Assembly: GCA_944381935.1 (NCBI GenBank)
Contig: CALWMN010000018.1
Span: 1 to 52,313, forward strand
Origin: an uncultured Mediterraneibacter sp.
Lineage (GTDB): Bacteria > Bacillota > Clostridia > Lachnospirales > Lachnospiraceae
Reading direction: 5' to 3'
Length of the DNA: 52,313 nt
Of the stretch, positions 6,818-51,776 are shown one piece after another. The notes under the pieces are model-generated. The model saw only the letters and a list, made by a program, of their open reading frames with translations. It had not been told where the DNA came from and did not search any database. Position 1 is the first letter of the stretch. Every line of letters begins with the position of its first letter. The position numbers were made by a program, and so were the translations under genes.

Positions 6818-7339
6818 TTAACCCGAACCGAGTATGACACTGGCCGCAAGCCCGGCGGCTGTGGCAATGAGGGCACCGGACAAGGTATAACGGGAATCTT
6901 TGATCCTGGCAGTCATAAAGTAGACGCTCATCGTGTAAAATATAGTTTCCGTACAGCACATAGAGATGGAGGCTATCATGCCGAGCCGGGAATCTGTCCC
7001 ATAGTTTTTATACACGTCGAGCAAAAGACCTGTGGCAGCCGAAGAGGAGAACATTTTCACGACGGTTAGAGGGATGAGCTCCCCAGGAAAGCCGATCAGT
7101 GAAGAATAACGCCCAATCAGTGCGGCGAGGAAATCAAGAAATCCCGAAGCGCGCAGGATTCCGACGGCAGCCATAAGCCCAATCAGGGTAGGCATGAGCC
7201 TGACTACAGTTAAGAACCCGTTTCTAGCTCCTTTGATAAAGGCGTCATATACATTGACCCCGGACAGAAGTCCATAAATGACAACAGACATAATGATAAA
7301 AGGGACAATAAAATCAGATATATAAACAAGAATATTCAA
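6818..7339 (-). CDS. spmB: Spore maturation protein B
   Basis: A 173-residue integral membrane protein with nucleoside-transporter-like gate repeats. It matches SpmB through ISDFIVPFIIMSVVIYGLLSG, KGARNGFLTVVRLMPTLIGL and the C-terminal half containing CCTETIFYTMSVYF. In Bacillus SpmA and SpmB act together in dehydration of the spore core and heat resistance. The start is TTG 7339 with AGGTG 6 bases upstream; longer in-frame extensions are hydrophilic and unlike SpmB. Normally spmB follows spmA on the same strand. Here it lies on the opposite strand, separated from spmA by the lipoprotein gene. Confidence 0.88.
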   Translation of the reverse strand: MNILVYISDFIVPFIIMSVVIYGLLSGVNVYDAFIKGARNGFLTVVRLMPTLIGLMAAVGILRASGFLDFLAALIGRYSSLIGFPGELIPLTVVKMFSSSAATGLLLDVYKNYGTDSRLGMIASISMCCTETIFYTMSVYFMTARIKDSRYTLSGALIATAAGLAASVILGSG

Positions 7340-7474
7340 ATGTTGCACCTGCCTGTCGAGTTGCTCTGTTAGATTTATATGCGTCCCATAGCGTATAGAT
7401 TCGATCTTCTGGCGGGACGGAATATGGGACATCATATCTTCATAAAATACTCCAAAGGTATTTCTGGAGTTCTT

Positions 7475-9290: not shown

Positions 9291-9629
9291 ATGTTGAATT
9301 ATCTTTGGGCAGGAATGATATTGATCGGAATCTTATTTGGGGCGTTTAACGGGAAAATGCCGAATATCACAAATGAAGCACTTGACTCGGCGAAGGATGC
9401 GGTAACCCTGTGCATTACCATGATAGGAGTGATGTCATTCTGGACCGGGATTATGGAGATCGCATCACAGGCGGGAATTATCAGAGCGGCATCAAAAAAA
9501 ATGCGGCCGGTCATAAGAGCGCTGTTCCCAGGGATCCCGGAAGGACACAGGGCAAACGAACATATATCGACAAATTTTATCGCAAATATTCTTGGCCTGG
9601 GATGGGCGGCAACGCCCGCCGGAGATTGA
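9291..9629 (+). CDS. spmA: spmA, N-terminal part (interrupted)
   Basis: Residues 1-111 match the first half of SpmA (LWAGMILIGILFGAFNGKMP, TMIGVMSFWTGIMEIASQAG, IANILGLGWAATPAG). After the GGA codon at 9621 the frame enters foreign DNA and stops one codon later (GAT TGA). The missing part, starting GLKAMEELG, is at 19289-19570. Joined at GGA, the two give an uninterrupted SpmA of 203 residues, close to the usual length of about 195. As it stands, this allele cannot make full SpmA. Confidence 0.93.
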   Translation: MLNYLWAGMILIGILFGAFNGKMPNITNEALDSAKDAVTLCITMIGVMSFWTGIMEIASQAGIIRAASKKMRPVIRALFPGIPEGHRANEHISTNFIANILGLGWAATPAGD

Positions 9630-9640
9630 GTTATAATTAT
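9605..9640 (+). other. Left attachment site of the spmA element
   Basis: The spmA reading frame (codons for AATPAG) runs up to GGA at 9621-9623, then switches to element DNA beginning GATTGAGTTATAATTATG. Only GGA is shared with the right end. Inferred core dinucleotide is GG at 9621-9622. Confidence 0.8.
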
Positions 9641-9885
9641 GACAGGTTGAAGAAATCATTGAAAATCAGGGGTTTCCATCGATTTAGTCTCTTTTTTCAT
9701 TTAAAGTGAATGAATACCAAGAATGATACGGTCTGATAGAGAAAAAGCGTTCCGGCCTTAGAAAACCGGATGTGATTTATGTGAAAAATTTTATGATAAA
9801 GGAGTGCCCGGAATAGAAAAGAGGAGAAATACTGCACGAAGTTCTGCTCTTTGATACAATAATACTCAAAAGGAGGAATTGTAAA

Positions 9886-10743
9886 ATGCATAATGTCAAA
9901 ATGATTATCGAAGAACAAATAGAGAGTTATCTTCATATGCTGCGAGAACAGGAACGAGCAAATCAAACAATTAAAAAATACGCCCACGATCTTTCGGCAC
10001 TGGCGATGTGGTTGAATGGACGGGAGTTAAATAAAGAAAACCTCATTACCTGGAAACAGTATCTTATTACGCGATATGCCGCCGCCAGCGTTAATACTAT
10101 GCTGGCGGCAATTAACGGTTTCCTGTCCTTTATGGGGTATCCGGAACTCAAAGTTAAGCCTGTAAAAATTCAACGACAGATTTTTTGCAGCACGGAAAAG
10201 GAATTAACAAAAGCGGAATATTTTCGACTTGTTACAGCCGCAAAGAAAAAGGGTAATGAACGCCTGGCTTTGGTCATCCAGACTATCTGTGGTACAGGAA
10301 TCCGTGTCAGCGAACTTCAGTTCATCACTGCCGAGTCAGTGCGGACAGGCCGGGCTGAGGTGTTCTGCAAGGGAAAACGGCGCAGTATATTTTTGCCAAA
10401 AGATTTGCGAAAAAGTCTTACAAGTTATCTGCGTGCAAAAAAAAGAACGGCGGGACCAGTTTTCCTAACGAAAACCGGGAAACCTCTCGACCGTTCTAAT
10501 ATCTGGCGGGATATGAAAGCGCTTTGCAAAAGCGCGGGTGTAGCACCAACTAAAGTATTTCCTCATAACTTGCGGCATTTGTTTGCCCGAACTTACTATT
10601 CACTGGAAAAAGATTTACTGCGGTTATCAGATATTTTGGGACACTCCAATATATCCACCACCCGTATCTACACAATGGAGAGCGGATATGTCCATGCAAA
10701 GCAACTAAACAAGATGGGATTAATTGCAATTGCTACAACATAA
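9886..10743 (+). CDS. Tyrosine recombinase, probable DNA invertase of the adjacent switch
   Basis: A 285-residue XerC/D-like site-specific recombinase. The N-terminal SAM-like core-binding domain covers about residues 5-85. The catalytic residues are all visible: R140 (GTGIRVSEL), K164 region, H227 and R230 (HNLRH), H253 (LGHSNISTT) and nucleophile Y262 (RIYTM). AGGAGG lies 9 bases before ATG 9886. Its stop codon (10741-10743) falls inside a 25-bp near-palindromic site that recurs inverted at 11004-11028. This makes it the obvious candidate to invert the 0.3 kb segment between them. It might alternatively take part in movement of the whole element. Confidence 0.92.
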   Translation: MHNVKMIIEEQIESYLHMLREQERANQTIKKYAHDLSALAMWLNGRELNKENLITWKQYLITRYAAASVNTMLAAINGFLSFMGYPELKVKPVKIQRQIFCSTEKELTKAEYFRLVTAAKKKGNERLALVIQTICGTGIRVSELQFITAESVRTGRAEVFCKGKRRSIFLPKDLRKSLTSYLRAKKRTAGPVFLTKTGKPLDRSNIWRDMKALCKSAGVAPTKVFPHNLRHLFARTYYSLEKDLLRLSDILGHSNISTTRIYTMESGYVHAKQLNKMGLIAIATT

Positions 10744-10759
10744 GAACTATTATGTTGTA
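10735..10759 (+). repeat. Left inverted recombination site (IRL)
   Basis: 8-bp arm ACAACATA, 8-bp asymmetric spacer AGAACTAT, 8-bp inverted arm TATGTTGT, plus one further matching base: the layout of a tyrosine-recombinase crossover site. It matches the reverse complement of 11004-11028 at 24 of 25 positions. The 3' end of the recombinase gene overlaps it. Confidence 0.88.
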
Positions 10760-10805
10760 GCCAAGACAATAACAGATTTCTATGCGTAGACACCTATACA
10801 TAGCC

Positions 10806-10834
10806 AATATACCAGTTTCACTGCTATAACACAA
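10806..10834 (-). promoter_or_regulatory. Sigma-A-type promoter inside the invertible segment, facing left
   Basis: Minus strand: -35 TTGTGT (10834-10829), 17-base spacer, -10 TATATT (10811-10806). In the present orientation it would read into the 3' end of the recombinase gene as antisense. After inversion it would read through the right site into cheW. Confidence 0.5.
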
Positions 10835-10973
10835 GTAATTTTTGAAAAATACCCCTTTTTTTTAAAGTCAGATGGAAATAGGCACAAAAAAGGGACCGGG
10901 AAAAATTAAGATTTTAACCGGTCTGATTTCCGCGTTTTTTGCTTTTTTTCGTGACCTAACAAAAGGCAGAAGG

Positions 10974-11000
10974 TAAAACTGTGCTCATTAAAGCCCCCAA
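10974..11000 (+). promoter_or_regulatory. Possible sigma-28-like promoter upstream of cheW (weak)
   Basis: TAAA at 10974-10977, a 15-base spacer, then GCCCCCAA at 10993-11000; the flagellar/chemotaxis consensus is TAAA-N15-GCCGATAT. Only about half of the -10 positions match, so this is a candidate supported mainly by the spacing and by the chemotaxis genes downstream. Confidence 0.3.
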
Positions 11001-11003
11001 TTA

Positions 11004-11028
11004 TACAACATAATAGTTCTTACGTTGT
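11004..11028 (-). repeat. Right inverted recombination site (IRR)
   Basis: Inverted copy of 10735-10759 with one difference in an arm (TACGTTGT for TATGTTGT on the plus strand). The 8-bp spacer ATAGTTCT is the exact reverse complement of the left spacer. It lies 64 bp before the cheW start codon. Confidence 0.88.
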
Positions 11029-11091
11029 GCTGACGGATCTAACCTCATCCTATCTAGACGTAGAAATTCGCCGAAGAAAGGAGGTGTCAGG

Positions 11092-11694
11092 ATGATCTCG
11101 GAACAAAGGAAACAAGAACTTGTCTCACAAATTTCCCATTTATCAGACGATCAGGCAGAGACTCTGGAAAAATATATTCTTGAATTATCCGATACACAAT
11201 CAGACCAGCCAGAGGGTGGGAAGAAATATCTTATTTTTACGTGTCAGGATCAAGTATATGGGATTGATATTTCTCAAATAGTACAAATTATTGAAGTTAC
11301 AGATATTATACCACTTCCAAACGCAACATCATATGTTAAAGGTGTCGTAAATATACGGGGAAGTATGGTCCCAATCCTTGATCTCGGGCTTCAGTTGGGA
11401 AAGCATGAGATCACGTACAGCAAGCGTACTTGCATTATCATTGTTACTGTCCGGAACCAGACTTTTGGTTTAATCGTAGATGCAGTACGTGATGTGGAAA
11501 TAATTCATGATGAGGATATTTATGCGCCGCCGGCACAAGTTAACATGGAAATGAATTGCCTGACAGGGATAGCAAAAACAGAATCCGTAGTTCTCTTGTT
11601 GGACGCGAAGCTTTTTATCGCGGAGAATGAGCTGGATTCTCTTGTGACGATCCCATCTGAAATTGACGACCTGGAGAAAAAGGAGAAAACGTAA
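11092..11694 (+). CDS. CheW-type chemotaxis coupling protein
   Basis: A 200-residue protein. A short helical N-terminal extension (1-44) precedes a CheW domain (about 45-190) with [35 protein letters not shown] and LTGIAKTE. CheW bridges chemoreceptors to the CheA kinase. A strong AAAGGAGGTG lies 5 bases before ATG 11092. It overlaps the receptor gene by TAATG, so the two form one translational unit. No cheA is present in the element, so the pair must plug into the host kinase. The position just right of an invertible segment suggests phase-variable expression. Confidence 0.93.
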
Positions 11695-13445
11695 TGAAAA
11701 AAATAAAGAGTCTAAGGGTGAAAACCAGATTAATACTTGGATTTGGTTTTCTAATGCTTCTAATGCTGATTATTTCTGTGATGTCTATATTGGGAATAAG
11801 GGCATTGAGAGCAGAAAATAACGTTCTTATCGAAAAGACGATCGCCAATAACGATTATGTGTGGGAAATGCGCAGAAATCTTCTGTCTGAGCAACGATAT
11901 GAGTTGATGGCACTTATCGAAAGTGATCATGTACAGGTGGAAGAACATCTGGATATGGCACAGCAGGAAGTAGATAAAACGGCAGACCTGTTTAAGCAAT
12001 ATCAGGGAAATTACCGGGTAGACGGAAGCAAAGTTGAACAGTTAGAGGTTTATTTTGAAGAACAGGCTTCCCCAAGAACCGAAATGATGGATCTGCTGCG
12101 GCTCGGGACAGAGGAAGCAAAAGAGAGGGCATATGAAATATTTGCAGAAGAATATAAGCCTTTGGTGGACAAACAGGCTGAAGTATTTTTCGATATAACC
12201 AACGATCAAGTCGCGTTAGCTGAAGCGGAATCAGGAAAGTCAGAAGCTACTTATAGGGCTATTCTTGCGGTACTGGTTAGTATCTTTATAATGGCAACAA
12301 TTATCAGTGTATATGTGACAAGAAAACTGGTAATGCGTATTGCCGCCCCGCTTGTTGAAATTGAGCAGGCTACATACGCACTCTCACAAGGTGATTTTAC
12401 GTCTCAAATTACTTACGACAGTGCCGATGAATTTGGGAATACCTGCAAAAGTATGCAAAGCAGCTTCACAAAACTAAAGGGAATTATTTCTGAAATCTCC
12501 ACTGTGCTGGGGGCATTAAGCAGAGATGATCTTACAGTCAGAGTTTCATCAGATTTCCCGGGAGAAATGCAGGGAATTGTGGTTTCCATACACAGGCTGG
12601 TTGACAGCTTAAATAGAACTATGCGAGAAATCCAGGAATCCGCCAGTCAGATCAATGCAAGTGCCGGGCAGGTTTCCAGCGGAGCACAGGCGTTAGCGCA
12701 GGGGACAACAGAGCAAGCCAGCAGTGTGGAAGAATTGTCTGCAAGAATAACCGAAATTTCCAATCAAGTGAAAATGAATTCAGAAAATGCGGGGACGGCA
12801 AATGTTCTAGCAACTGCTTCTGGAGAAGTGGCGCAATCGACATTGGATAATATGAATGAGATGATTTCCGCTATGCGTGAGATTTCTACGGCTGCTGAGA
12901 ATATTAAAAAGGTGATCAAAGTTATTGATGATATCGCATTTCAGACCAACATTCTTTCACTTAATGCAGCAGTAGAAGCAGCAAGGGCCGGGACAGCAGG
13001 AAAGGGATTTGCTGTAGTTGCGGATGAAGTAAGAAATCTTGCCGGGAAATCGTCAGAAGCAGTCAAAAGTACAACTTCCCTCATTGAAAGCGCACTTAAT
13101 GCAGTTTCTCACGGGGAAGAGATTGCAGAGAGAACTCATACAGCTTTTGAGGGGTTAGCAGAACAGGTGCAGAAAGTAGTATCCACCATTGGTGAAATTT
13201 CTGACGCGTCCAGGGAACAGGCTAATGCGATTCAGGAAATCACCTCCGGAGTAGACCAGATATCTGCGGTTATTCAGACAAACTCTGCGACCAGCCAGGA
13301 AAGTGCGGCAGCCAGTGAGGAACTTTCCGGCCAGGCAAGTATGCTTAATAGCCTGGTCAATCGGTTTCGATTGTCTCAGTCCCAAAATCAATATGATATT
13401 GAGCAGATAGAGAATAACAATTCCAGTACAGAAATCAAGTATTGA
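11694..13445 (+). CDS. Methyl-accepting chemotaxis protein (transmembrane)
   Basis: A 583-residue chemoreceptor. TM1 is at about residues 13-36 and a four-helix-bundle-like sensor domain at about 37-183. TM2 (about 185-207) is followed by HAMP and a long cytoplasmic coiled coil. The highly conserved hairpin tip [20 protein letters not shown], where CheA and CheW bind, is present, as are Glu/Gln-rich methylation helices either side. The C-terminus is a hydrophilic tail without the CheR-tethering pentapeptide. The ligand is unknown. It is translationally coupled to cheW by TAATG. A chemoreceptor is unusual cargo for a serine-recombinase element. Confidence 0.94.
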
Positions 13446-13692
13446 ATTTCTAATGTTTGAATGTTTTCTTGATAAAAACTTACGGGAATACTTGCTTCTC
13501 AGGCAAACTGTATGTATCTGTCAGATTTGCGCCAGCCGCATATCCTTCCCGTGATTCAGCGGCTGCTTCATACCATTCCACCGGAATAATTCACTTTGCG
13601 GGAATGGCATAATGCAGTAATCTATATCACGGGAAACAAGCGTTCTTTTGAAAGTGTATAAGATGCCAGCGCGCGGCGGTGCCGGTATAGTG

Positions 13693-13731
13693 CAGCCTTA
13701 GATTACCTGACGGGAAATAAGGCTGTTTTTT
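13693..13731 (+). terminator. Terminator downstream of cheW-MCP
   Basis: CAGCCTTA (13693-13700) pairs with TAAGGCTG (13718-13725) and is followed directly by six T residues. It would end the chemoreceptor transcript about 250 bp after its stop codon. Confidence 0.75.
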
Positions 13732-13754
13732 ATTAAACCGGAGAAAGGGTTTTA

Positions 13755-13856
13755 ATGTTTGTGAAGAAGATTTCCAAACACATGGAGAGCAGTTTTACGA
13801 TGAAGCATAATATAAAAAATCCGGAAAAATATATGTCAAAGTACAATAAAATCTAG
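13755..13856 (+). CDS. Possible 33-residue basic peptide
   Basis: ATG 13755 follows GAGAAAGGG by 5 bases and opens a 33-codon frame rich in Lys (11 of the 33 residues are Lys or Arg), ending at TAG 13854. No family is recognised. It lies just after a terminator, so it would need its own promoter. Small basic proteins can act as directionality factors, but that is only a guess here. Confidence 0.3.
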   Translation: MFVKKISKHMESSFTMKHNIKNPEKYMSKYNKI

Positions 13857-13961
13857 TATTACATCTTGAAATCCGCATTTTTAAAGCAGAGAGCAACATA
13901 TAAGACAAGCAGATTGTAATATATTAGGAAGGAAGAAATCCGGGAAAGGATATTATGGCAA

Positions 13962-14210
13962 ATGGAAATTCAGGCGATGAGAGATGTGGATGTGACAAAG
14001 GTTGATCCGCAGACACTGATAGATATAAGAGAGATAAAAACGGACAGTAATCTAACTCCAAAGAAGCGGATGGAGCAGTTTATACATCAGATCGGGAATC
14101 CGTATTGTTACAAGTATGGAGATTACATAGTAAAGATTGGATTTGAAGATACAGAAGATACTTTGGAAGACCGGTTGAAAGATTTGATATTAAAAGCCGG
14201 AAGAAGATGA
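13962..14210 (+). CDS. Small conserved protein next to recombinases (DUF6870-like)
   Basis: An 82-residue acidic protein with MRDVDVTKVDPQTLIDIR near the N-terminus and NPYCYKYGDYIVKIGF in the middle. From memory this resembles a small family (DUF6870) often found beside large serine recombinases in clostridial elements; its function is unknown. GGGAAAGGA lies 11 bases before ATG 13962; the internal ATG 13977 is an alternative start. It is separated from the first serine recombinase by 117 bp with two inverted repeats. It could be a recombination accessory or directionality factor (inference). Confidence 0.65.
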   Translation: MEIQAMRDVDVTKVDPQTLIDIREIKTDSNLTPKKRMEQFIHQIGNPYCYKYGDYIVKIGFEDTEDTLEDRLKDLILKAGRR

Positions 14211-14239
14211 GTTTAAAATCTGTATAAGACAAATTCCGA

Positions 14240-14320
14240 CACATATGATAAGATAAGGTCAGGACTAAATCCATATGTGGGAACCTGATTTTATGGGTGA
14301 TTCAGCACTATAAAATCAGG
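14240..14320 (+). promoter_or_regulatory. Paired inverted repeats controlling the first serine recombinase
   Basis: CACATATG (14240-14247) pairs with CATATGTG (14272-14279). CCTGATTTTAT (14284-14294) pairs perfectly with ATAAAATCAGG (14310-14320). The second arm of the latter contains the first three bases of the AGGAGG Shine-Dalgarno of the recombinase (14318-14323), so the hairpin could hide it. Either translational control or a repressor operator is possible. Confidence 0.55.
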
Positions 14321-14327
14321 AGGCATT

Positions 14328-15968
14328 ATGGTGAAAAGAGATATATTCATTTCTTATATGGCAGCTGCATATCTTCGTTTATCAAAAGAAGATGCGGATC
14401 TGCTGTCCACGGCGGATAAGAAGGAAAGCAACAGCATTGCCAATCAAAAGGCATTGATACTCAAAGAGTTGGAATCTATGCCGGATGTTACCCTTTATGA
14501 TATTTATATTGATGATGGCTATACCGGACTGAATTTTGAACGTCCGGGGTTTCATCGTATGCGGAATGACATTTACGACGGAAAAGTAAATATGGTGATC
14601 GTCAAAGACCTGTCCCGCCTGGGGCGTGATTATATTGAATCCGGACGTTATGTGAAAAAGATTTTCCCATCATTAAATGTCCGGTTCGTATCTGTCCTGG
14701 ATCATTTTGACAGCCTCACGGCAACACAAAGCGATCGGAATCTTCTGCTCCCTGTTAAAAACTTTGTCAATGACAGCTACAGCAGGGACATATCGGGAAA
14801 GATACGCAGCCACCAGGAAGTCATGAGGGAAAGCGGTCTTTATATCGGGGCATATGTGGCATATGGCTATAAAAAGTCAGAAGATGATAAAAGACGTATC
14901 GTGCCGGATGAGTATTCAGCGGATATTGTAAAGCGAATTTTTGCATGGAAGCTGGAGGGGATGAGCGCCGGGGGAATCGCTGAGAAACTGAATCAGATAG
15001 GCGTTATCCCACCGTCAGAATATAAGCGGTATATGGGGATTAACTATAAGTGTGGATTTCAGAAGAAAGCGAAAGCAGAATGGTCGGCCGTAACAGTAGG
15101 ACGCATATTAAGAAATAAGATATACATAGGAGTTCTTGAACAGGGCAAAAGTAAAAAGGTTAATTATAAACTGAAAAAAATTGTCCAGAAACCTGAAGCA
15201 GAATGGGCAGTCGTTGAGAACGCACATGAGCCTATCATCAGTAAGGCGGATTTTGAAAATGTGGCCAGACTGCTCCGTGCAGATACAAGGAAGTCTCCTG
15301 GGAAAGATAAAACTTATCTGTTCTCCGGCATGATTTACTGCGGAGAATGTGGGAAGGGCATGGTGCGGCGGACTTCTCAGAGAAAAGACGGCTCCGGCGT
15401 GTGCTATATCTGTTCTACCTATAACAAGGGGGAAGGATGCAGCAGACATGCCATAGAAGAAACCGCCCTGGAGAAAATTGTGCTGGATGCTGTGAACCGT
15501 CATATCGAGCATGTAGAGAGATTAGACCAATTATTGAGTCTGATCGACAGGATGGAGATAAAATATGACGATATTATAGCAAACGATCAGGAGATCCTTC
15601 AGAAATATGAAGAACAGAAACGCTGCAGAGAGATGGAGATTTCTCTTCATAAAGACTTGTTGGATGGAATTATCTCAAAAGAAGAATACAAACAGTTTTC
15701 TCAGATTTATGTTGAACGTGCAAAAGCTGCTGATCAGGCAATTATCTCGCTCCGCAGTGAGCTGGAAAATATTTTTTCAAAAGGTATGCTTAAAAATGAA
15801 TGGATGAAATATTTTATCGAAAACAGAAATATTAAAAAGCTGGACAGAAACATTGTCGTCTCTCTAATTGAGAAAATAGCCATATATGAAGATTCCAGAC
15901 TGGAGATTATCTTCATGTATGAGGACAAATACAAGACAGCCTTAAAGATTGCAGACAGCCTGCCGTGA
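14328..15968 (+). CDS. Large serine recombinase 1 of the spmA element
   Basis: A 546-residue large serine recombinase. The N-terminal resolvase catalytic domain has Ser19 in YLRLSKED and the arginine motif KDLSRLGRDY. YSRDISGKI marks the linker to the recombinase domain (about 170-290). A zinc ribbon begins CGECGKGM, and a long C-terminal coiled coil follows. AGGAGG lies 4 bases before ATG 14328. First of three tandem recombinase genes. The trio lies against the right end of the element and probably catalyses integration and excision at the GGA core in spmA. Confidence 0.93.
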   Translation: MVKRDIFISYMAAAYLRLSKEDADLLSTADKKESNSIANQKALILKELESMPDVTLYDIYIDDGYTGLNFERPGFHRMRNDIYDGKVNMVIVKDLSRLGRDYIESGRYVKKIFPSLNVRFVSVLDHFDSLTATQSDRNLLLPVKNFVNDSYSRDISGKIRSHQEVMRESGLYIGAYVAYGYKKSEDDKRRIVPDEYSADIVKRIFAWKLEGMSAGGIAEKLNQIGVIPPSEYKRYMGINYKCGFQKKAKAEWSAVTVGRILRNKIYIGVLEQGKSKKVNYKLKKIVQKPEAEWAVVENAHEPIISKADFENVARLLRADTRKSPGKDKTYLFSGMIYCGECGKGMVRRTSQRKDGSGVCYICSTYNKGEGCSRHAIEETALEKIVLDAVNRHIEHVERLDQLLSLIDRMEIKYDDIIANDQEILQKYEEQKRCREMEISLHKDLLDGIISKEEYKQFSQIYVERAKAADQAIISLRSELENIFSKGMLKNEWMKYFIENRNIKKLDRNIVVSLIEKIAIYEDSRLEIIFMYEDKYKTALKIADSLP

Positions 15969-15993
15969 GATAAATTGAAGGAGGTATGCAGCA

Positions 15994-17661
15994 TTGGCTA
16001 GGACAGCAAAGCGGTATTTACTTGAGAGAAATATCAATACAGCGAAAATAATAGTCTATAAAGCTGGTAATTATCTGCGGCTGTCGGTTGACAGCGATTA
16101 TACCGGAAGTGACTCTTTGGAAAATCAGCGGCGGCTTGCAAAGGAATATGCGGACAGGCATAGCGATATAGAAATCGTCAGAGAGTATGTGGATGACGGA
16201 AAAACCGGAACTACATTCCAACGCCCTTCTTTTGACCGGATGATGCATGACTTGAAAAAAGGCGTTATTAACTGTGTGATTGTAAAGGACTTATCTCGAT
16301 TTGGAAGAGAATATATTGATGCGGGAAATTATATTGAAAAAGTTTTCCCTTTTTTGGGAGTACGGTTTATTTCTATTGTAGATAAATATGATAGCGAAGA
16401 TCCTGGCTGCGACAAGGAATTGCTGCTGATTTCACTGAAAAATTTGATGAATGAGATGTATGCCAGAGACATTTCAAGAAAAGTAGGAACGACATATCAG
16501 ATCAAACACCAGGAACATATATTTTATCGTTCCTCTACAGTTCCATATGGCTACAAAATGGACGAAAACGATGAAAATTACTGTATTGATGAAGCCCCGG
16601 CAGAGATTGTGAAGACCATATTCAGGAAATACCATGAAGGGTGTTCAAAGTACGCTATTTCTATCTGGCTTTATGAACACAACATTCTGACGCCCAGGCA
16701 GTACAGTCAGACAGGGCATGTTTACTGTGGGGAGGGTGATGTGCTGAGACAATGGTATATAAGTACGATAAGTCGTATACTGAGTAATCCTGTCTATATA
16801 GGAAATATTGTTCGCCACAAAACAGAACAGAGCTTTTATGCCGGGGAAAAATCCAGTCCTGTTCCGGAAACAGAGCAAGTCCGGATCACTGGCAATCATA
16901 AGCGGATTATCAGTGAAACTGTTTTTGCAGAGGTACAGGAGATGATGAAGCGTACAGGCGAAATATATAAGGAATACAGAAAAGACGCAGACCAAACGAA
17001 AAAGACTATTGCGTTCGATAAAAATGTTTTTCATGGAAAACTCTTCTGTGGAGATTGTAAAGCACCTATGATTAGAACCGTCGGCTATAAAATGTGTCAC
17101 AGAGAGCCAAAACGGATAAAAATATTTAAATGCAGTTTCCATGCCAATAACAAAAACCTCTGCGATTCCAGAGGCATAGAGGAACTGGAATTGTGCAAAA
17201 TCCTCTATACGACAATCCGCAGACATATTTCTTTTATTAAGGGCATAAGAAAGCTGGCCGATCAGGAAATAAACTTCTCTTTTGAAGAAAAGATAAGGCG
17301 TATAGGGAAAGAAAAAGATCAGTTGCAGACCAGGAAAATTATGGCAGAACAAGAATACATTCACGTTTACTCACGATATAAAACGAGAGAAATACAAGGG
17401 AAAGACTTCCAGACTTTCCGCAAAGATTATCTTGGGCGGACGAAAATGTTGGAGGAACAAAAAGCAGGACTGGAGCAATCGGAAAAAGCGCTGAATAAAT
17501 CCTGCATGGACATGAAAAAGATGTTTGCAGACTGGCTGCAGTTTGAAAATGTAAATGAGCTGACAGAGAAAATGATTGAAACCTGTGTAGAGAGAATTAA
17601 TGTTTATGCAGGGGGGCGGATAGAGGTCAGATTAACGTATCGGGATATTTTTGTCACATAG
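15994..17661 (+). CDS. Large serine recombinase 2 of the spmA element
   Basis: A 555-residue large serine recombinase with catalytic Ser31 in NYLRLSVDS, KDLSRFGREY, YARDISRKV, a recombinase domain, a zinc-ribbon start LFCGDCKAPM and a coiled-coil tail. The start is TTG 15994 with AAGGAGG 9 bases upstream, 25 bases after the stop of recombinase 1. It overlaps the 5' region of recombinase 3 only if the longer start of that gene is used. All catalytic positions I can check are kept, so it is not an obvious pseudogene. Confidence 0.92.
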   Translation: MARTAKRYLLERNINTAKIIVYKAGNYLRLSVDSDYTGSDSLENQRRLAKEYADRHSDIEIVREYVDDGKTGTTFQRPSFDRMMHDLKKGVINCVIVKDLSRFGREYIDAGNYIEKVFPFLGVRFISIVDKYDSEDPGCDKELLLISLKNLMNEMYARDISRKVGTTYQIKHQEHIFYRSSTVPYGYKMDENDENYCIDEAPAEIVKTIFRKYHEGCSKYAISIWLYEHNILTPRQYSQTGHVYCGEGDVLRQWYISTISRILSNPVYIGNIVRHKTEQSFYAGEKSSPVPETEQVRITGNHKRIISETVFAEVQEMMKRTGEIYKEYRKDADQTKKTIAFDKNVFHGKLFCGDCKAPMIRTVGYKMCHREPKRIKIFKCSFHANNKNLCDSRGIEELELCKILYTTIRRHISFIKGIRKLADQEINFSFEEKIRRIGKEKDQLQTRKIMAEQEYIHVYSRYKTREIQGKDFQTFRKDYLGRTKMLEEQKAGLEQSEKALNKSCMDMKKMFADWLQFENVNELTEKMIETCVERINVYAGGRIEVRLTYRDIFVT

Positions 17662-17692
17662 GAGTATGGAAAAAGAAAGGGGGCATCAGCTT

Positions 17693-19246
17693 ATGTTTAT
17701 GATTCTGGCCTTGTATCTGCGCCTTTCCAGGGAAGATGATGAGCCGGACGAGAGTAACAGCATAACGAACCAAAGGCTTATTCTGCGGAAATATATTGAG
17801 CAGAGACCGGAATTTCAAGGATATATCATAAAGGAGTATGCGGACGATGGGTATAGCGGCAGAAATTTTGAACGTCCGGCGGTAAAGGAACTTCTGGAAG
17901 ATATCAGAACCGGCAAAGTATACGGCATACTTGTGAAAGACTTCTCCCGGTTTGGAAGAAATCTGATCGAGGTCGGAGATTATATTGAGAAGATATTTCC
18001 CCTTTTGGATATTCGGTTTATTGCTGTTAATAATCATTTTGACAGTGCGGATTATGACGGAACAACGCCGGATATGGACGTTTCTTTTCAAAATCTGATG
18101 TATGATTACTCTAGTGCGGAAAACTCCGTGAAAATAAAAGGCGATTTGTTTAACCGTAGAAAAAGTGGGAATTTTCTGGCTTCGTTTGCGCCGCTCGGAT
18201 ATATGAAATCCCCGCAGAATCATAATCAACTTATCATAGATCCGGAGGCTGCGTGGATTATCCGTACTATTTTTGATAAATACAGTAAATGGGGTGTGAA
18301 AGCACAGGTGGCTCGTTATCTGAATGATAATAAAGTGCCAACGCCTCTGCAGTATGCCGTCCGGAAAGGTAAGATGAAACGATGGAAATATGAGGAAGAT
18401 GAAAAGTTCTGGAGCGGTGCTATAGTAGGGAAAATTATTAAAAATCCGGTCTATATCGGCCATGTTGTCTTTCATAAATCAGAAGTACAAGAACCGGCGT
18501 CCCCACAGCGCAGATTCTTGCCAAAAGAAGAATGGAATATTTGTGAGAATGTCCATGAACCGATTATATCAAAGGAACTTTTTGAATGGGTAAACAGCAC
18601 AGAATTTCTCGAACAGACAACAGGAGATCAGCAGAAAAAGGAAAAAAGAAAACCTGGAAGTAAAGACTCTCCGATAAAAGGTTTCGTAAAGTGCGGCGGA
18701 TGCGGGCATAGCATGGTCAGACGCAACAGGGCAAATGCCTCTTATTATTGCCGCTACTATTACGAAAGCAAAAAAGAGGAGTGCTGTAAGGAAAATATAA
18801 AAGAAGCTGATCTTATCGAAATTGTAAAAGCGGCAGTATGCAGGCAGGCAATGGCCGCCGCAGATTTAAGAAAACTCCTGAAGATGCAGAAAGATGCTGA
18901 ACGTCAGAATCGAGATCACTGGAAAAAACAGAAAAAGCAACTGGAAAGGCAAATCCAAAAACTTCAGAAAGAGAACTTTGAGCTGTATGAGAAGTATAAA
19001 GCAGGTCAGCTATCCAGAGAGGTGTTCGCTGAACTGCGGAAGAAATGCCGGGAAAGGATACAGCATCTTCAAAAACAACTGGAGGAATACACTGGAAAAC
19101 AAGTCACCATAGGATTGACCAGAGAGATAGTGGAACAGCTCATTTTCAAAATCTATGTATATGACCGGAACAGAATTGAAATAATCTTTAACTTCCAGGA
19201 TGAATGGGAGGCTCTTGTCAAATCGACAAAAGGTTTCGAGAATTGA
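17693..19246 (+). CDS. Large serine recombinase 3 of the spmA element
   Basis: A 517-residue large serine recombinase with catalytic Ser12 in YLRLSRED, KDFSRFGRNL, zinc ribbon VKCGGCGHSM and a strongly charged coiled coil (about residues 405-470). The linker motif usually written YARDxSxKI reads YSSAENSVKI, which is divergent. ATG 17693 has AAAGGGGG about 10 bases upstream; the in-frame ATG 17666 is an alternative. Its stop codon is 42 bp from the right end of the element. Confidence 0.92.
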   Translation: MFMILALYLRLSREDDEPDESNSITNQRLILRKYIEQRPEFQGYIIKEYADDGYSGRNFERPAVKELLEDIRTGKVYGILVKDFSRFGRNLIEVGDYIEKIFPLLDIRFIAVNNHFDSADYDGTTPDMDVSFQNLMYDYSSAENSVKIKGDLFNRRKSGNFLASFAPLGYMKSPQNHNQLIIDPEAAWIIRTIFDKYSKWGVKAQVARYLNDNKVPTPLQYAVRKGKMKRWKYEEDEKFWSGAIVGKIIKNPVYIGHVVFHKSEVQEPASPQRRFLPKEEWNICENVHEPIISKELFEWVNSTEFLEQTTGDQQKKEKRKPGSKDSPIKGFVKCGGCGHSMVRRNRANASYYCRYYYESKKEECCKENIKEADLIEIVKAAVCRQAMAAADLRKLLKMQKDAERQNRDHWKKQKKQLERQIQKLQKENFELYEKYKAGQLSREVFAELRKKCRERIQHLQKQLEEYTGKQVTIGLTREIVEQLIFKIYVYDRNRIEIIFNFQDEWEALVKSTKGFEN

Positions 19247-19269
19247 TAAAGTTTCTAAAAAGATTAAAT

Positions 19270-19305
19270 CATTTATTTAACGTAAGGTGGACTGAAGGCA
19301 ATGGA
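19270..19305 (+). other. Right attachment site of the spmA element
   Basis: Element DNA ends ...ATTTAACGTAAGGT, then GGA (19289-19291) resumes the spmA frame with CTG AAG GCA ATG. TAAC at 19278-19281 mirrors GTTA at 9630-9633 on the left end, about GG. Confidence 0.8.
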
Positions 19306-19570
19306 GGAGCTTGGAAATCTGGAGGATGACAGAAGAAACGGAAAAGTTTTGGGACCGGTGAGAAAGAAAGGAATTGCCAGCAATGAGATGTGTACGTTCC
19401 TTATTATAAATATCTCATCCCTCCAGTTAATCCCGGTGAATGTGATCGCTTACAGAAGCCAGTACGGCAGCGCCGACCCTGCGGGGATCATCGGGGCAGG
19501 CATACTGGCGACGGCGGTGAGCACAGGCGCGGCGGTGTTGTTCTGCAAACTGATGGACAGGAAGCAATAA
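19289..19570 (+). CDS. spmA: spmA, C-terminal part (interrupted)
   Basis: Ninety-three codons continue SpmA exactly where the 9291 part stops: GLKAMEELGNLED, then MCTFLIINISSLQLIPVNVI and PAGIIGAGILATAVSTGAA, matching the SpmA C-terminal half. A weak AAGGTGG (19284-19290) could allow isolated translation from ATG 19301, giving 89 residues, but this would lack the first half of the membrane protein. No spmB follows; the next gene has its own promoter. Confidence 0.92.
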   Translation, partial: GLKAMEELGNLEDDRRNGKVLGPVRKKGIASNEMCTFLIINISSLQLIPVNVIAYRSQYGSADPAGIIGAGILATAVSTGAAVLFCKLMDRKQ

Positions 19571-41945: not shown

Positions 41946-42416
41946 TTGCAGGAAGATTTGGAACAACGGACCGTATCAGTCTCTATCCAGGCGGCAAAGC
42001 TGTCCGGGAGGGTGCTTCGCTCTGCGCTTGCCGCTGCGCTGCGGAAAATGGAGCAGGAGCGGACAAATCCAAAGGTCGGGCGCAACAGTATGAAGCGGCT
42101 GACCTATAAGGACCCTGGGGCGAATACCATTGAGGTGCCTGGAAGAATCCGGTCCTTTGAACGGTACGCCCGGAAACATCAGGTACGATACCATATTGAA
42201 AAGGAGCTGGGGACGGACCCACCGAAATGGACCGTCTATTTTAAAGCAAATCAGGTAGACGCCGTGACCGCGGCTTTTAAGGAATATACGCAGAAAGACC
42301 TTTCCCGCAGCAGCAGGCCATCGCTGCTTACTCAGCTTCGCAAATTTAAGGAACTGGCCCAGACACTTGGCCGCGACAAAGTAAGGAATAAGGAGCATGG
42401 AGGGCCGGAACTTTGA
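41946..42416 (+). CDS. PcfB-family conjugation accessory protein
   Basis: A 156-residue protein matching PcfB (DUF3801): QEDLEQRTVSVSIQAAKLSG and FERYARKHQVRYHIEKELG. PcfB in pCF10 works with the VirD4-type coupling protein and relaxosome. The start is TTG 41946 with AGGAGG 6 bases upstream. It overlaps virD4 by 4 bases, the usual gene pair. Confidence 0.85.
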   Translation: MQEDLEQRTVSVSIQAAKLSGRVLRSALAAALRKMEQERTNPKVGRNSMKRLTYKDPGANTIEVPGRIRSFERYARKHQVRYHIEKELGTDPPKWTVYFKANQVDAVTAAFKEYTQKDLSRSSRPSLLTQLRKFKELAQTLGRDKVRNKEHGGPEL

Positions 42417-42955
42417 AGATTGACCGTGATATACTAAAAAAACAAATCATCCTTCATCTGCCCTATCTTTTATTCCTTTTGGTATTCGCTAAGCTGGGAG
42501 AAGCGGTACGCCTTGCTCCTGGAGTGGATGCTTCACAGAAATTATTGGGGCTGACGGAAGGATTTTCAATGGCTTTTCAGAGTATGTGGCCCAGTGCGCC
42601 TCTGGACTGGCTGGTGGGTCTGTGCGGTGCGGTTATCGTGCGATTAGCCGTTTATCTGAAAGGGAAGGATGCAAAAAAATATCGGAAAAATGTGGAATAT
42701 GGGAGCGCACGTTGGGGCACGAAGACAGATATTGCGCCTTTTATGGACCCGGTGCCGGAGAATAATATCATTCTTACCCAGAGCGAGGGCCTGATGTTAA
42801 ATGGCAGGCCAAAGAATCCGGCCAATGCCCGGAATAAAAACGTGCTTGTGGTCGGTGGCAGCGGTTCCGGTAAGACGAGATTTTTTATAAAGCCCAATTT
42901 AATGCAGATGCACAGTTCCTATGTTGTCACCGATCCGAAAGGGTTAATCTGTTAA
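42413..42955 (+). CDS. virD4: VirD4-like type IV coupling protein, N-terminal fragment
   Basis: Residues 1-177 of the ICE coupling ATPase. Two membrane helices lie at about 13-30 and 65-82, then YGSARWGTKTDI and Walker A VVGGSGSGKTRFF. The frame runs into foreign DNA just after VVTDPKG and ends at TAA 42953. The continuation GTVLVECGKMLARG starts at 51279. Without excision of the insert no coupling protein can be made. Confidence 0.9.
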   Translation: MKIDRDILKKQIILHLPYLLFLLVFAKLGEAVRLAPGVDASQKLLGLTEGFSMAFQSMWPSAPLDWLVGLCGAVIVRLAVYLKGKDAKKYRKNVEYGSARWGTKTDIAPFMDPVPENNIILTQSEGLMLNGRPKNPANARNKNVLVVGGSGSGKTRFFIKPNLMQMHSSYVVTDPKGLIC

Positions 42956-42995
42956 GGACAGAGGAAATAACGCCGCAGAAAGTGAGGTGCAGAGC

Positions 42996-44639
42996 ATGAG
43001 GACAGCAACACAGACTATGAAATTCACAGCATTGTACGAGCGTTTGAGCCGAGATGATGAACTCATAGGCGAGAGCAACAGTATCAAAAACCAGAAACAG
43101 CTTCTTGAAAACTACGCCCATAAAAACGGCTATTCCCCTATCCGGCACTTCACAGATGACGGAGTAAGCGGAACAACTTTCGAGCGTGAGGGCTTCCAAG
43201 CTATGATTGCGGAGGTTGAAGCCGGAAATGTAAGTGCAGTTATTGTAAAGGACATGAGCCGCTTTGGGCGTGATTATCTGAAAGTCGGTTTTTATACCGA
43301 AGTCATGTTCAAAGAAAAGGGTGTGCGGTTTATTGCTATCAACAACGGCATAGACAGCGCAAACCAACAGGACAGCGATTTTACCCCATTCCTAAACATT
43401 ATGAACGAGTGGTACGCAAGGGACGCAAGCCGCAAGATACAGGCGGTTTTCAAATCCCGTATGCAGGACGGCAAACGTGTTTCCCCAAGCGTTCCCTACG
43501 GCTACTTGAGAAGCCCCGAAGATAAACAGAAGCTAATCATTGATGAAGAACCTGCCGCCGTTGTGCGCCGGATTTATCAAATGGTAATCGAGGGGAAAGG
43601 CGTTACCGCCATAGCCGACATTCTAACTGCTGAAAAGGTGCTGATACCGTCAGCCTATGCAAAAATCCATTGTCCGGAAAACAACCACAGCAAGGGATTT
43701 ACAAATCCCTATCTATGGTCTGCTACCGCCGTTTCCTATATCCTTGAAAAGCAGGAATACATGGGGCATACGGTACTGGGAAAGACAGTCAGCGTCAGCT
43801 ACAAGACGAAGAAGCGGCGCAAGGCAGAGCCGGACGAACTGATGATTTTCAAAAATACCCACCCCGCCATTGTGGACGAGGAAACATGGTATTTAGCGCA
43901 GAAGCTACGGAAAACGGTCAGAAAGCCAAGCTATGACAGACCGCCCCACCCCTTGACAGGGCTTGTCTATTGCGCCGATTGCGGTCATAAAATGACGCAC
44001 CGACAGCCAAGCCCCACCAAGAAAAAGAAGTATGACGCAGACGACGCTTATATCTGCGGCAGTTACCGACAACGCACAAGGAACTGTACCATGCACTTTA
44101 TCAAGACTTCCGTTTTGTGGGAACTGATTTTAACGGCAATACGGGAAGTCAGCGACTATGTGCGGCAGGACGAACAGGCTTTCATAGACAAGGTACAGCA
44201 GACCTCTACCGTACAAATAGCAGAAACGCAGAGGGAGCAGAAACGGCGGCTTGCAGAAGCCACCGAGCGTAACGGGGAACTGAATACCCTAATCAAGAAG
44301 CTGTATGAGGGCAACGCCACAGGCAAGATACCCGACAAGCATTTTGAACGGCTGTTAGTCGAGTATGACAGGGAGCAGACCGCACTGGAAACTGAGATTG
44401 AGGACTTGCAGGAGCAGATTGACAGCTTCAATGAGGACAGCACAAAAGCCGATAAATTCATAGCCGTTGTGCGGCGATATACGGATTTTACGGAACTTAC
44501 CACCCCAATGTTGAATGAGTTTATAGAAAAGGTGGTAGTCCATGAAGCCACAGGCGGCAGGACGGACAGAAAACAGAAAATTGATGTATATTTTAACTTT
44601 GTCGGACAGGTGGAACTACCACCGCCGGACAGGGCATGA
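42996..44639 (+). CDS. tnpX: Large serine recombinase of the TnpX/TndX type
   Basis: A 547-residue large serine recombinase with catalytic Ser18 in [33 protein letters not shown], a recombinase domain with PYLWSATAVSYILEKQEYMG, zinc ribbon YCADCGHKM and a long coiled coil. GAGGTG lies 6 bases before ATG 42996. It sits at the left end of the insert in virD4, as expected for Tn4451/Tn5397-type elements, and should cut the element out as a circle. A second, similar gene begins at 51862. Confidence 0.93.
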   Translation: MRTATQTMKFTALYERLSRDDELIGESNSIKNQKQLLENYAHKNGYSPIRHFTDDGVSGTTFEREGFQAMIAEVEAGNVSAVIVKDMSRFGRDYLKVGFYTEVMFKEKGVRFIAINNGIDSANQQDSDFTPFLNIMNEWYARDASRKIQAVFKSRMQDGKRVSPSVPYGYLRSPEDKQKLIIDEEPAAVVRRIYQMVIEGKGVTAIADILTAEKVLIPSAYAKIHCPENNHSKGFTNPYLWSATAVSYILEKQEYMGHTVLGKTVSVSYKTKKRRKAEPDELMIFKNTHPAIVDEETWYLAQKLRKTVRKPSYDRPPHPLTGLVYCADCGHKMTHRQPSPTKKKKYDADDAYICGSYRQRTRNCTMHFIKTSVLWELILTAIREVSDYVRQDEQAFIDKVQQTSTVQIAETQREQKRRLAEATERNGELNTLIKKLYEGNATGKIPDKHFERLLVEYDREQTALETEIEDLQEQIDSFNEDSTKADKFIAVVRRYTDFTELTTPMLNEFIEKVVVHEATGGRTDRKQKIDVYFNFVGQVELPPPDRA

Positions 44640-48574: not shown

Positions 48575-48594
48575 ATCTCCCTTGCTTGACAAGG

Positions 48595-48750
48595 GCGCAC
48601 TTATACACCCTTACGGGTGTGTGCGCTCTGCCGAGGGCTTTTATCAGCGTTCCGCTGATACAGGGGAGCTACACTCCCCTACGGGAATTTCATTCCCTAC
48701 CCCTTGTGTACTTCACGCCAGATGATACCCTGCTTCGCAGTCTATCATCT
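48595..48750 (+). promoter_or_regulatory. Candidate oriT: array of hairpins before the relaxase
   Basis: Five hairpins in 156 bp: GCGCAC..GTGCGC with inner CACCC/GGGTG (48595-48626), TATCAGCG/CGCTGATA (48642-48660), AGGGGAG/CTCCCCT (48662-48680), GGGAAT/ATTCCC (48683-48697), AGATGATA/TATCATCT with inner CTGC/GCAG (48720-48750). Such arrays next to MobA/MobL genes are typical of transfer origins. The nick site is not identified. Confidence 0.65.
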
Positions 48751-48792
48751 GCCATGAAGTCTGGATATGCCGCCCGAAAGGAGGTTGACAGC

Positions 48793-50298
48793 GTGGCGAT
48801 ATATCATTGTAGCATTAAGATAATCAGCAGAGGGAAAGGCAAATCAGCCGTTGCCGCCGCCGCTTACCGAAGCGGAGAAACCCTCACAAACCACTATGAC
48901 GGCGTTATCCATGACTTTACGAGGAAAGGCGGTATTGTGCATACGGAAATCCTTTTGCCGCCCCATGCGCCGCCGGATTTTGCAGACCGTTCTATCCTTT
49001 GGAACAGCGTAGAGAAAATCGAGAAAGCCAAGAACTCACAGCTTGCAAGGGAGATTGAAATTGCCTTGCCCGTAGAACTTGACAGGGAACAGCAGATACA
49101 GCTTGTACGGGAATATGTGAAAGAAAATTTTGTGTCCGTTGGAATGTGCGCCGATTTTGCCATTCACGACAAGCAGGACGGAAATCCTCACGCCCATATC
49201 ATGCTAACCATGCGCCCGTTGGAGCAGTCCGGCGAGTGGGGAGCAAAGTCAAAAAAAGAATATCTTTTAGACAAGGACGGTCAGCGTATCAAGCTGAAAA
49301 ACGGCACATTCAAGAGCCGCAAGGTTGATACGGTTGACTGGAACAGCCAAGAGAAAGCCGAGGTATGGCGGCAAGCGTGGGCGGATATTGCAAACCGCTA
49401 TCTTGCGGCGCAGGACAGACCGGAACGCATAGACCACCGTTCCTATAAGCGACAAGGCATAGAGCAGATACCAACCGTCCACATGGGCGTTGCCGCCACC
49501 CAAATGGAGCGCAGAGGGATTGTAACCGATAAGGGCAACCTGAACAGAGAAATACGGGAACAAAACCGTCTGCTAAAGGAAGTCAAACGCCGGATTGCCG
49601 CCCTCACAGCATGGATAAAAGAAAAGGCTTCACAGGTAAAGGAAAATCAATCCGTCAATCCATTCCCTTCCGTTCCTATCCCTTCCGAGCGTACCGAACA
49701 GCCGCCCACCCTTTTAGAGTTGCTTAACCGAGCCTATACAGAAGCCGCCAAGCCGCAGAGCCGGTATGGAAAAATCCAAGACTTGAAGCTGTACGCAAAG
49801 GCGTTTAATTTCTTGCAGAGCAGGAACATCACTACCCTTGTGCAGTTGCAGGAAGTTGTATCGGATATGAAAAAGCGGTACTGGAATACTAACGGGGAAA
49901 TCAAACAGACAGAAAAGCTACTCCATGAGCGAAAGGAACTGATAGACCAAGCCGAGAAATATCTGGAACACCGTCCTACCTACAAAGCCTATATGCAGAC
50001 CAAACCAAAAAAGCAGGAGGAATTTTTTGAAAGCAACCGAGCCGCATTGATTTTATATCAGAGTGCCGAGCGTTATCTCAAAGAACGTTTAGGAAAAGAC
50101 AATGTGCTGAAGCTGAAAGCATGGAAAACAGAGATTGCCGACCTTACCCAAAAGAAAAGCCGCTTGTATAGCAGTTTGCAGACCTTGAAAGCGGAGGTGC
50201 AGGAAGCCGAAGCGGTCAAGAAGTGCGTGGAACAGGCGATACAGCCGGAACAGACCAAAGAAAAGACGCAGAACAAACGGCATGATATGGAATTGTGA
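48793..50298 (+). CDS. MobA/MobL-family relaxase
   Basis: A 501-residue relaxase. The N-terminal motif YHCSIKIISRGKGKSAVAAA with Tyr-4 region and AYRSGE, and the metal-binding histidines H133 and H135 in NPHAHIMLTMRPL, identify the MobA/MobL family that nicks oriT and leads single-strand transfer. The C-terminal half is helical and lysine-rich (about 310-500). The start is GTG 48793 with AAAGGAGG 8 bases upstream; an upstream in-frame extension would run through the hairpin array and is unlikely. Transfer in trans would need a coupling protein from another element, because the host virD4 is interrupted here. Confidence 0.9.
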   Translation: MAIYHCSIKIISRGKGKSAVAAAAYRSGETLTNHYDGVIHDFTRKGGIVHTEILLPPHAPPDFADRSILWNSVEKIEKAKNSQLAREIEIALPVELDREQQIQLVREYVKENFVSVGMCADFAIHDKQDGNPHAHIMLTMRPLEQSGEWGAKSKKEYLLDKDGQRIKLKNGTFKSRKVDTVDWNSQEKAEVWRQAWADIANRYLAAQDRPERIDHRSYKRQGIEQIPTVHMGVAATQMERRGIVTDKGNLNREIREQNRLLKEVKRRIAALTAWIKEKASQVKENQSVNPFPSVPIPSERTEQPPTLLELLNRAYTEAAKPQSRYGKIQDLKLYAKAFNFLQSRNITTLVQLQEVVSDMKKRYWNTNGEIKQTEKLLHERKELIDQAEKYLEHRPTYKAYMQTKPKKQEEFFESNRAALILYQSAERYLKERLGKDNVLKLKAWKTEIADLTQKKSRLYSSLQTLKAEVQEAEAVKKCVEQAIQPEQTKEKTQNKRHDMEL

Positions 50299-51278: not shown

Positions 51279-51776
51279 GGCACAGTCCTGGTAGAGTGTG
51301 GGAAAATGCTGGCGCGGGGCGCTCCGAAACGGGATAAGGATGGAAAGCCGATACGCAATAAAAAGGGAAAGATCATATATGAGCCGTATAAGATTAAGGT
51401 CTTTAATACCATTAACTTTCAGAAAAGTATGCACTTTAATCCTTTTGCATACATCCATTCAGAAAAAGATATTTTGAAGATTGTCACCACGCTAATCGCC
51501 AATACAAAAGGCGAGGGAAAAGCCGGTGACGATTTTTGGGTGAAAGCAGAGACACTTTTGTATACGGCGCTGATTGGCTATATCTACTATGAGGCTCCAA
51601 CCAATGAACAGAATTTTGCCACGCTGGTAGAAATGCTGAACGCAATGGAAGTACGGGAGGATGATGAATCGTTCAAAAATGCGGTTGATCTGCTCTTTGA
51701 TGCGCTGGAGCAGAAAGACCCGGACCACTTCGCCCTGCGCCAGTATAAAAAATACAAACTGGCAGCGGGAGATGTA

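Follow-up and report, generated by a model that had tools for sequence, protein, structure and literature searches.

How did a sporulation gene come to be cut in two by an insertion of 9,668 bp, and could it be made whole again? The question is raised by spmA in an uncultured Mediterraneibacter sp. (Lachnospiraceae; assembly GCA_944381935.1, contig CALWMN010000018.1), whose genome is 99.88% complete in 54 contigs; one of these contigs, 52,313 nucleotides long and analysed entire, is referred to here as the window. Starting at 9291, the spmA reading frame is open as far as the Gly111 codon (GGA, 9621-9623), where GAT TGA follows and closes a truncated open reading frame (ORF) of 112 amino acids (9291-9629), and it is taken up again at GGA 19289-19291 to end at 19570. 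Joining the flanks gives an SpmA of 203 residues, the same product whether the cut is placed before or after GGA, which confirms the in-frame split proposed in a first-pass annotation. The joined protein is 69-86% identical to congener SpmA over nearly its full length, and the insert differs from its flanks in G+C content (0.409 versus 0.472 and 0.490). This is a site-specific, non-phage element that precisely splits a sporulation gene and resembles the skin class in its anatomy. On the reading that we favour, with a probability of roughly 0.5, it is an integrative element with a module of three large serine recombinases (LSRs) and a DUF6870 protein, uses the GG of the spmA Gly111 codon as its attachment site, and would be excised at the time of sporulation, most simply in the mother cell.

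An SpmA search of the same genome returns just the two halves and no further copy, so that the second intact spmA named beforehand as telling against excision did not turn up. Relatives had also been proposed as a place to look for an uninterrupted gene, and spmA is indeed present in 50 of 57 congeners, each time unbroken across almost all of the protein (the entries for G010 and G040 show a single TAA and have open frames of 215 amino acids). The ratio of nonsynonymous to synonymous substitution rates (dN/dS) between the joined SpmA and its congener counterparts has a median of 0.055 (18 usable pairs; 19 of 28 congeners were parsed by a start-codon rule), against 0.062 among congener pairs (n = 145, many with saturated dS). 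The two halves are thus not decaying in the way that had been considered as evidence against restoration, although this is a weak argument given how recent the insertions are in mouse-gut relatives. An ordinary dN/dS fits regulated excision and a plain tolerated insertion alike and carries no information on the time since insertion. SpoIVA and a CheA-type domain are both present in the genome, which makes sporulation plausible, as well as a partner for the chemotaxis cargo of the element (CheW and a methyl-accepting chemotaxis protein, MCP).

The same codon is split in other hosts. A search of genome_contigs with a two-protein alignment of LSR1, the first of the three recombinases (window and G314), returned 14 loci at 66-67% identity and a broken copy at 72% (L166), the next match standing at 46%. 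By their titles these 15 loci come from isolates and metagenome bins of Lachnospiraceae, Clostridia and Eubacteriaceae, including MGBC and IMSAGC records, which we take to be mouse-gut collections. Ten loci have enough contig past LSR3, and all ten carry an open spmA 3′ half within about 1 kb of it; the contigs of the other five stop in or just after the module. Searching spmA in the 14 genomes behind the loci other than G314 returned, in 13, an N-half stopped at the same place by TGA and no full-length copy (in one of them, G510, the 3′ half was not found); the remaining genome, G514, has a full-length spmA with extra 3′ pieces. In G314 the gene is split likewise, with its halves on two contigs. 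There are therefore 14 other genomes in which the N-half is open to the junction and broken at the same codon, with no intact spmA found, and spoIVA is kept in all 15 split hosts. LSR1 DNA is 99.8-100% identical among eight of them (G501-G507, G513), while identity between their spmA N-halves is no more than 58.7-91.5%, pointing to recent movement between these hosts, into the same codon every time. The window element is a diverged sister of this recently spread group (66% in LSR1). What is new here is a clade of triplet elements dedicated to the spmA Gly111 codon.

Where exchange takes place can be narrowed by comparing junctions. Throughout the spmA clade the left junction is GG followed by GCTTTGAG or GCGTTGAG, while at the right junction the base after GG differs by host, and exchange is accordingly placed at GG or directly beside it. 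Serine integrases are expected to have a symmetric attP around a central dinucleotide (PMC5595907; this and other articles are cited here from excerpts). About the GG of the window, pairing in the reconstructed circle junction extends to 12 of 20 positions, compared with 5 in attL, 7 in attR and 5 in attB; in shuffles P is 0.005 when the centre is fixed at this GG and 0.12 when the best centre may lie anywhere. As for the GG-centred dyad noted in the first-pass annotation, GG is the best centre in the circle junction of the window element and of three more, those of G501 and G511 (12 of 20 each, and kin of each other) and one in pdaB (14 of 20).

LSR biochemistry suggests how such an element would leave. 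One or more of the three LSRs would recombine attL with attR at GG, releasing a circle and restoring spmA exactly. By analogy with skin, gin and yin this may happen during sporulation, and most simply in the mother cell, which would need spmA and would not pass on the loss of the element; the element would thus stay hidden in a gene that is idle during growth. Two features of skin- and gin-type elements are found here, namely a split whose exact frame excision would restore (for spmA and, elsewhere, for pdaB) and an element-encoded recombinase, predicted from its domains. Taken by itself, regulated excision may be put at about even odds.

The recombinase module belongs to a large family. Of 396 genomes from the host's bacterial family, 80 have an LSR1 match (E ≤ 1e-110), the host's own included, and 80 regions around LSR3 or LSR1 matches were taken; 79 were examined (L082, whose contig begins inside the module, was omitted), and after setting aside L075, which has no LSR1, 78 loci form the basis of the counts below. 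Exactly three LSRs stand in a row in 68 of the 78, the others having one, two, four or five. No close relatives of LSR3 were found in genome_contigs, from which the element's own records may be excluded, and LSR1 matches in plasmid records include Streptococcus dysgalactiae (39.5%) and S. agalactiae (45.5%). The window element has three tandem LSRs on the same strand with Resolvase and Recombinase domains, inserted near the triplet in a coding gene with a very short shared core (GG or GGA), as is characteristic of triplet-serine-integrase elements. Streptococcal integrative and conjugative elements (ICEs) carry such a ‘triplet of serine integrases’ as a known module (PMC4701971; a table of PMC13089153 names it too). 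The module that would carry out integration is therefore already known, which the first-pass annotation had overlooked. Among small genes DUF6870 alone was seen to be conserved alongside the LSRs; its product is a candidate accessory or directionality factor. By eye, a promoter-like motif of approximately AGGACAA, some 16 bases and AATAWAAT can be made out before the DUF6870 gene in many of 59 triplet elements (e.g. L087, L090, L093).

Related triplets interrupt other genes of the spore cycle. The sequence after the triplet was read in the 78 loci except L103 (skipped) and L125 (no sequence there), and an interrupted gene was recognisable in 30 loci, leaving 48 unassigned. Thirteen of the 30 are sporulation or germination genes in five families, each supported by searches: csp-like S8 proteases in eight loci (L087, L090, L093, L094, L096, L129, L135, L137), spmA in two (L083, L131), and spoVT (L078), spoVD (L074) and pdaB (L124) in one each. 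CspBA is the best NCBIfam match in the four csp loci scanned (226-305 bits), L093 was assigned by Pfam (Peptidase_S8) and L094, L135 and L137 by tblastn; NCBIfam scores of these spore-gene fragments lie under the whole-protein cut-offs. Possible csp 3′ ends seen by eye in six more loci (L091, L101, L104, L111, L088, L092) were unconfirmed by tblastn and are not counted. The pdaB insertion was verified on both sides, a triplet element of 6,919 bp whose flanks join into an in-frame PdaB and whose left end is much like those of the spmA elements. The spoVD, spoVT and csp insertions are known from their right side: a left-end scan of all loci gave a convincing left end only in the pdaB locus, and no csp N-halves came up when some 50 kb upstream was searched by motif in two genomes.

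The other 17 targets are not sporulation genes and include integrases of other elements. Six are supported by searches, namely a helicase (L102), a tyrosine integrase (L108), an LSR (L109), an aldo/keto reductase (L121), an enolase (L130) and a flavodoxin (L140); eleven were assigned by reading only, namely Fic (L065), MBOAT (L095), FeoB (L107, with no NCBIfam match), M23 (L112), integrases (L113, L116, L117, L120), an LSR (L119) and flavodoxins (L134, L141). The enolase case (genome G278) has the right end of a triplet within the gene (TIGR01060, over its cut-off) and is surprising unless a second enolase exists. Since loci were picked by LSR1 or LSR3 similarity, related elements share targets and csp may be multicopy, the counts indicate an enrichment in spore genes rather than test it.

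For restoration of spmA at sporulation we count the precise split, the single copy, the codon shared by 15 genomes, the near-identical LSR1 of eight hosts that differ widely in spmA, the open 3′ half after LSR3 in ten of ten loci, the dyad of the circle, the pdaB case, the 13 spore targets and the retention of spoIVA. We also count two published observations: in C. difficile both spmA-spmB and cspBA-cspC belong to the sigma-E, that is mother-cell, regulon (PMC3789822), and gin, a non-phage element with three serine recombinases, excises at sporulation (PMC5595907). Other observations weigh against it. Members of the family are also found in genes whose restoration would seem to serve no purpose, as among the 17 non-spore targets, and the insertions of the mouse-gut clade are too recent for the absence of decay to prove function. 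One of the spore targets, spoVT, is a forespore gene in B. subtilis and fits poorly with mother-cell logic. SpmA is probably dispensable for growth, so a host may tolerate its loss, which would probably cost spore quality rather than life; the protein is described as lowering spore core water (PMC5376575). Two exact circle-junction patterns had no match in viral_contigs, a weak test, and no excised junction or circle was seen. A sigma-E-like promoter picked out by eye before DUF6870 in the spmA group was dropped, as a similar motif, also by eye, turns up among the 59 upstream regions, including those of non-spore insertions.

A plain site-specific mobile element in a tolerable target, excising rarely for transfer with no link to sporulation and leaving its host with spores of lower heat resistance, is an explanation to which we give slightly less than an even chance. 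It draws on the streptococcal triplet ICEs, which disrupt mutT, traG and hsdM with no developmental restoration reported in the excerpts of PMC4701971, and on an action of spmA on spore core water rather than on growth (PMC5376575 and general background). The non-spore majority of recognisable targets and the very recent spread among hosts are also what it would lead one to expect. Sporulation and germination genes make up a few per cent of a genome, however, and a share of 13 in 30 targets from five families exceeds that, while the spmA 3′ half after LSR3 has stayed open in every one of the ten loci that reach it. We consider it improbable that the element has simply inactivated spmA in a host that is losing sporulation, with both halves left to decay. 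Such losses do occur in the family, spmA having no match in seven of the 57 congeners (five of them less than 90% complete) and in 143 of 396 family genomes (E ≤ 0.001), but SpoIVA and a spmB-like gene in the window are intact, the dN/dS of the joined SpmA is ordinary and all 14 other N-halves are open to the junction. An assembly artefact or chance is so improbable that it can be set aside: although some relatives are metagenome assemblies, nothing was found to support it, a single contig spans both halves in the window and in L156, and 14 further assemblies show this junction, in each case within the spmA of that host, among them the strain-titled records COE1 and 1XD42-76.

The spmA gene also seems to receive other DNA. 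Several genomes hold additional spmA 3′ pieces 1-7 kb from the first, and in L152, L163 and L165 the segment between two spmA 3′ halves terminates in the element's own end sequence; the distal piece is truncated in L152 and open in L163 and L165. Small cassettes with defence-like genes were recognised in L152 (16480-18094, an AAA ATPase and its partner, PADLOC HEC-02A and B), L161 (16063-17747, an AbiLi-like ATPase) and L165 (14079-14987, a RhuM-type PDC-S05 protein); the scan for defence-like proteins had no match in the L163 segment and left out that of L155, which contains masked bases. Over the first 50 codons of the conserved spmA 3′ tail G501 and G505 are 98.7% identical, against 82.4% for their N-halves, a disparity which suggests that spmA 3′ halves may travel with the cassettes. 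A second spmA site lies near residue 164, where L131 (G408) has a triplet element, and in G225, G302, G369, G457 and G500 there are additional 3′ pieces that begin around residues 150-164, in some cases next to an intact spmA, as if cassettes there deliver a replacement 3′ end. G408 and G500 have spmA pieces only, at this other site, and are outside the 14 split genomes. Genomes with several spmA matches had been candidates for split cases as well, but mostly proved to have an intact or looped single copy with extra 3′ pieces and were not counted.

Putting these strands together, and with the odds rather against us, we speculate that the triplet-LSR elements of gut Lachnospirales may form a large, unrecognised skin-like class, with lineages specialised on spmA (two sites), csp-like proteases (two sites), spoVD, spoVT and pdaB that would excise with the spore programme, spmA serving in addition as a docking port for defence-like cassettes and replacement 3′ ends.

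Features of the inserted element and of spmA in the window (positions on the 52,313-nucleotide contig)
Feature	Position	Strand	Basis or remark
spmB-like gene (Gate domain), intact, divergent from spmA	6818..7435	-	SpmB name is a reading of the sequence
spmA 5′ part (residues 1-110 and Gly111 codon)	9291..9623	+	truncated ORF continues to TGA 9627-9629
attL: spmA flank, crossover GG 9621-9622, then element left end	9599..9645	+	left end resembles those in 14 further spmA cases and one pdaB case
Inserted element, 9,668 bp	9623..19290	+	GC shift, flank joining
Tyrosine recombinase, XerC/D-like	9886..10743	+	profile match, under the cut-offs of those families
Inverted site 1 of probable invertible segment (10760-11003)	10734..10759	+	
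Inverted site 2 of that segment, directly upstream of CheW gene	11004..11029	-	
CheW-like cargo	11092..11694	+	PF01584, 110.6 bits
MCP, cargo	11694..13445	+	4HB_MCP_1, HAMP, MCPsignal
DUF6870 protein, 82 amino acids	13962..14210	+	adjoins LSR1 upstream in 59/78 triplet loci
LSR1, first of three large serine recombinases	14328..15968	+	most conserved of the three in related loci
LSR2	15994..17661	+	
LSR3	17651..19246	+	ends 42 bp before crossover GG
attR: element right end, crossover GG 19289-19290, then spmA	19266..19312	+	
spmA 3′ part (Gly111 to residue 203)	19289..19570	+	stop 19568-19570

Domain searches bear out the three serine recombinases read from the sequence at first pass, each of LSR1-LSR3 having Resolvase, Recombinase and Zn_ribbon domains, but that account of the insert had omitted the tyrosine recombinase, CheW, MCP and DUF6870. 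The absence of phage and conjugation genes also stands for the seven main ORFs of the insert, to which the scans were confined: Pfam finds no relaxase or secretion protein among them (9623-19290), and PHROGs no phage structural, lysis or replication genes, its matches being integrase/invertase, a weak transposase (LSR3) and families of unknown function for CheW and MCP, with none for DUF6870. An ICE or a prophage, also considered, is thus not supported. LSR1-like proteins do occur in 132 phage records (E ≤ 1e-20), the best at 42% and on short unannotated contigs, which does not make the window element a phage. The sole match of the window tyrosine recombinase in 62 related loci is at 29% identity, on the minus strand of L170. 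A different tyrosine-recombinase-like ORF, recognised by reading, lies on the minus strand in the left part of the spmA element of G314 (L151, the left contig), and tyrosine recombinases may therefore be recurrent cargo. Between the tyrosine recombinase side and the CheW-MCP side stand two inverted 26-bp sites, each a 10-bp dyad with the spacer GAACTA, 244 bp apart. They are probably an invertible switch, which would render the chemotaxis cargo phase-variable; a promoter search inside the 244-bp segment gave nothing beyond chance.

Elsewhere in the window, the region from 33 to 52 kb is ICE-like. Two T4SS-DNA_transf pieces (42413-42955 and 51306-51788) flank about 8 kb in which an LSR lies at 42987-44639 and, at 48586-50298, a relaxase of the MobA/MobL type. 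A mobilizable element thus seems to be nested within the gene for a coupling protein (traG-type).

Intervening elements of sporulation genes were previously tied to a small number of targets, of which the yin paper (PMC10747680) lists sigK, spsM, spoVFB, gerE and yabG. Here one lineage is seen to spread through many gut species, entering spmA at the same codon in every case resolved, and related elements occupy another four genes of sporulation or germination. Should excision prove developmental, this would be a common lifestyle of gut mobile elements, offering many natural replicates in which to study the choice of target. Otherwise, gene content would class as spore-forming many gut commensals in which spmA or some other spore gene is off, with consequences for the heat resistance of spores, for transmission and for the prediction of sporulation from genomes.

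In titles and abstract openings of the open-access literature we found, among the matches listed, no element in spmA, in agreement with the first-pass annotation, and no triplet LSRs in sporulation genes except gin; nor did anything there link triplet integrases to sporulation or LSR mobile elements to Lachnospiraceae. The closest precedent is gin in gerE of Bacillus cereus ATCC10987 (Abe et al. 2017, PMC5595907), likewise a non-phage element that splits a sporulation gene, has three serine recombinase genes and rejoins its target precisely at a shared core. The skin-like interpretation is upheld as regards anatomy, and gin is a precedent that the first-pass annotation had missed. In gin the genes form a girA-girB operon with girC apart, the core is 9 bp, 31 genes are carried and excision by GirC and GirX was shown (PMC5595907). 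The window element, here likened to gin by description rather than by Gir-LSR homology, has its LSRs in tandem at the right end near attR, a core of GG or GGA and spmA as its target.

The staphylococcal cassette chromosome (SCC) leaves its target gene functional, by contrast with spmA, which is cut. It is otherwise similar in having more than one serine recombinase and in forming cassette composites at one gene (PMC5595907), and three serine recombinases are also found on island 023_CTnT of C. difficile, where they are distributed over three sub-elements (PMC6814731). The streptococcal triplet ICEs share three serine integrase genes in the same orientation near a disrupted coding gene and very short direct repeats (2-8 bp there), but carry conjugation modules and hit mutT, traG or hsdM, whereas the window element targets spmA and has no recognised conjugation gene (PMC4701971). 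Skin in sigK, SPbeta in spsM and yin in yabG also split a sporulation gene by a site-specific element with a serine recombinase (PMC5025042, PMC4191935, PMC10747680), a single recombinase gene according to the authors of the gin study (PMC5595907); unlike the element in spmA, they are prophages or prophage-like, and their excision has been demonstrated.

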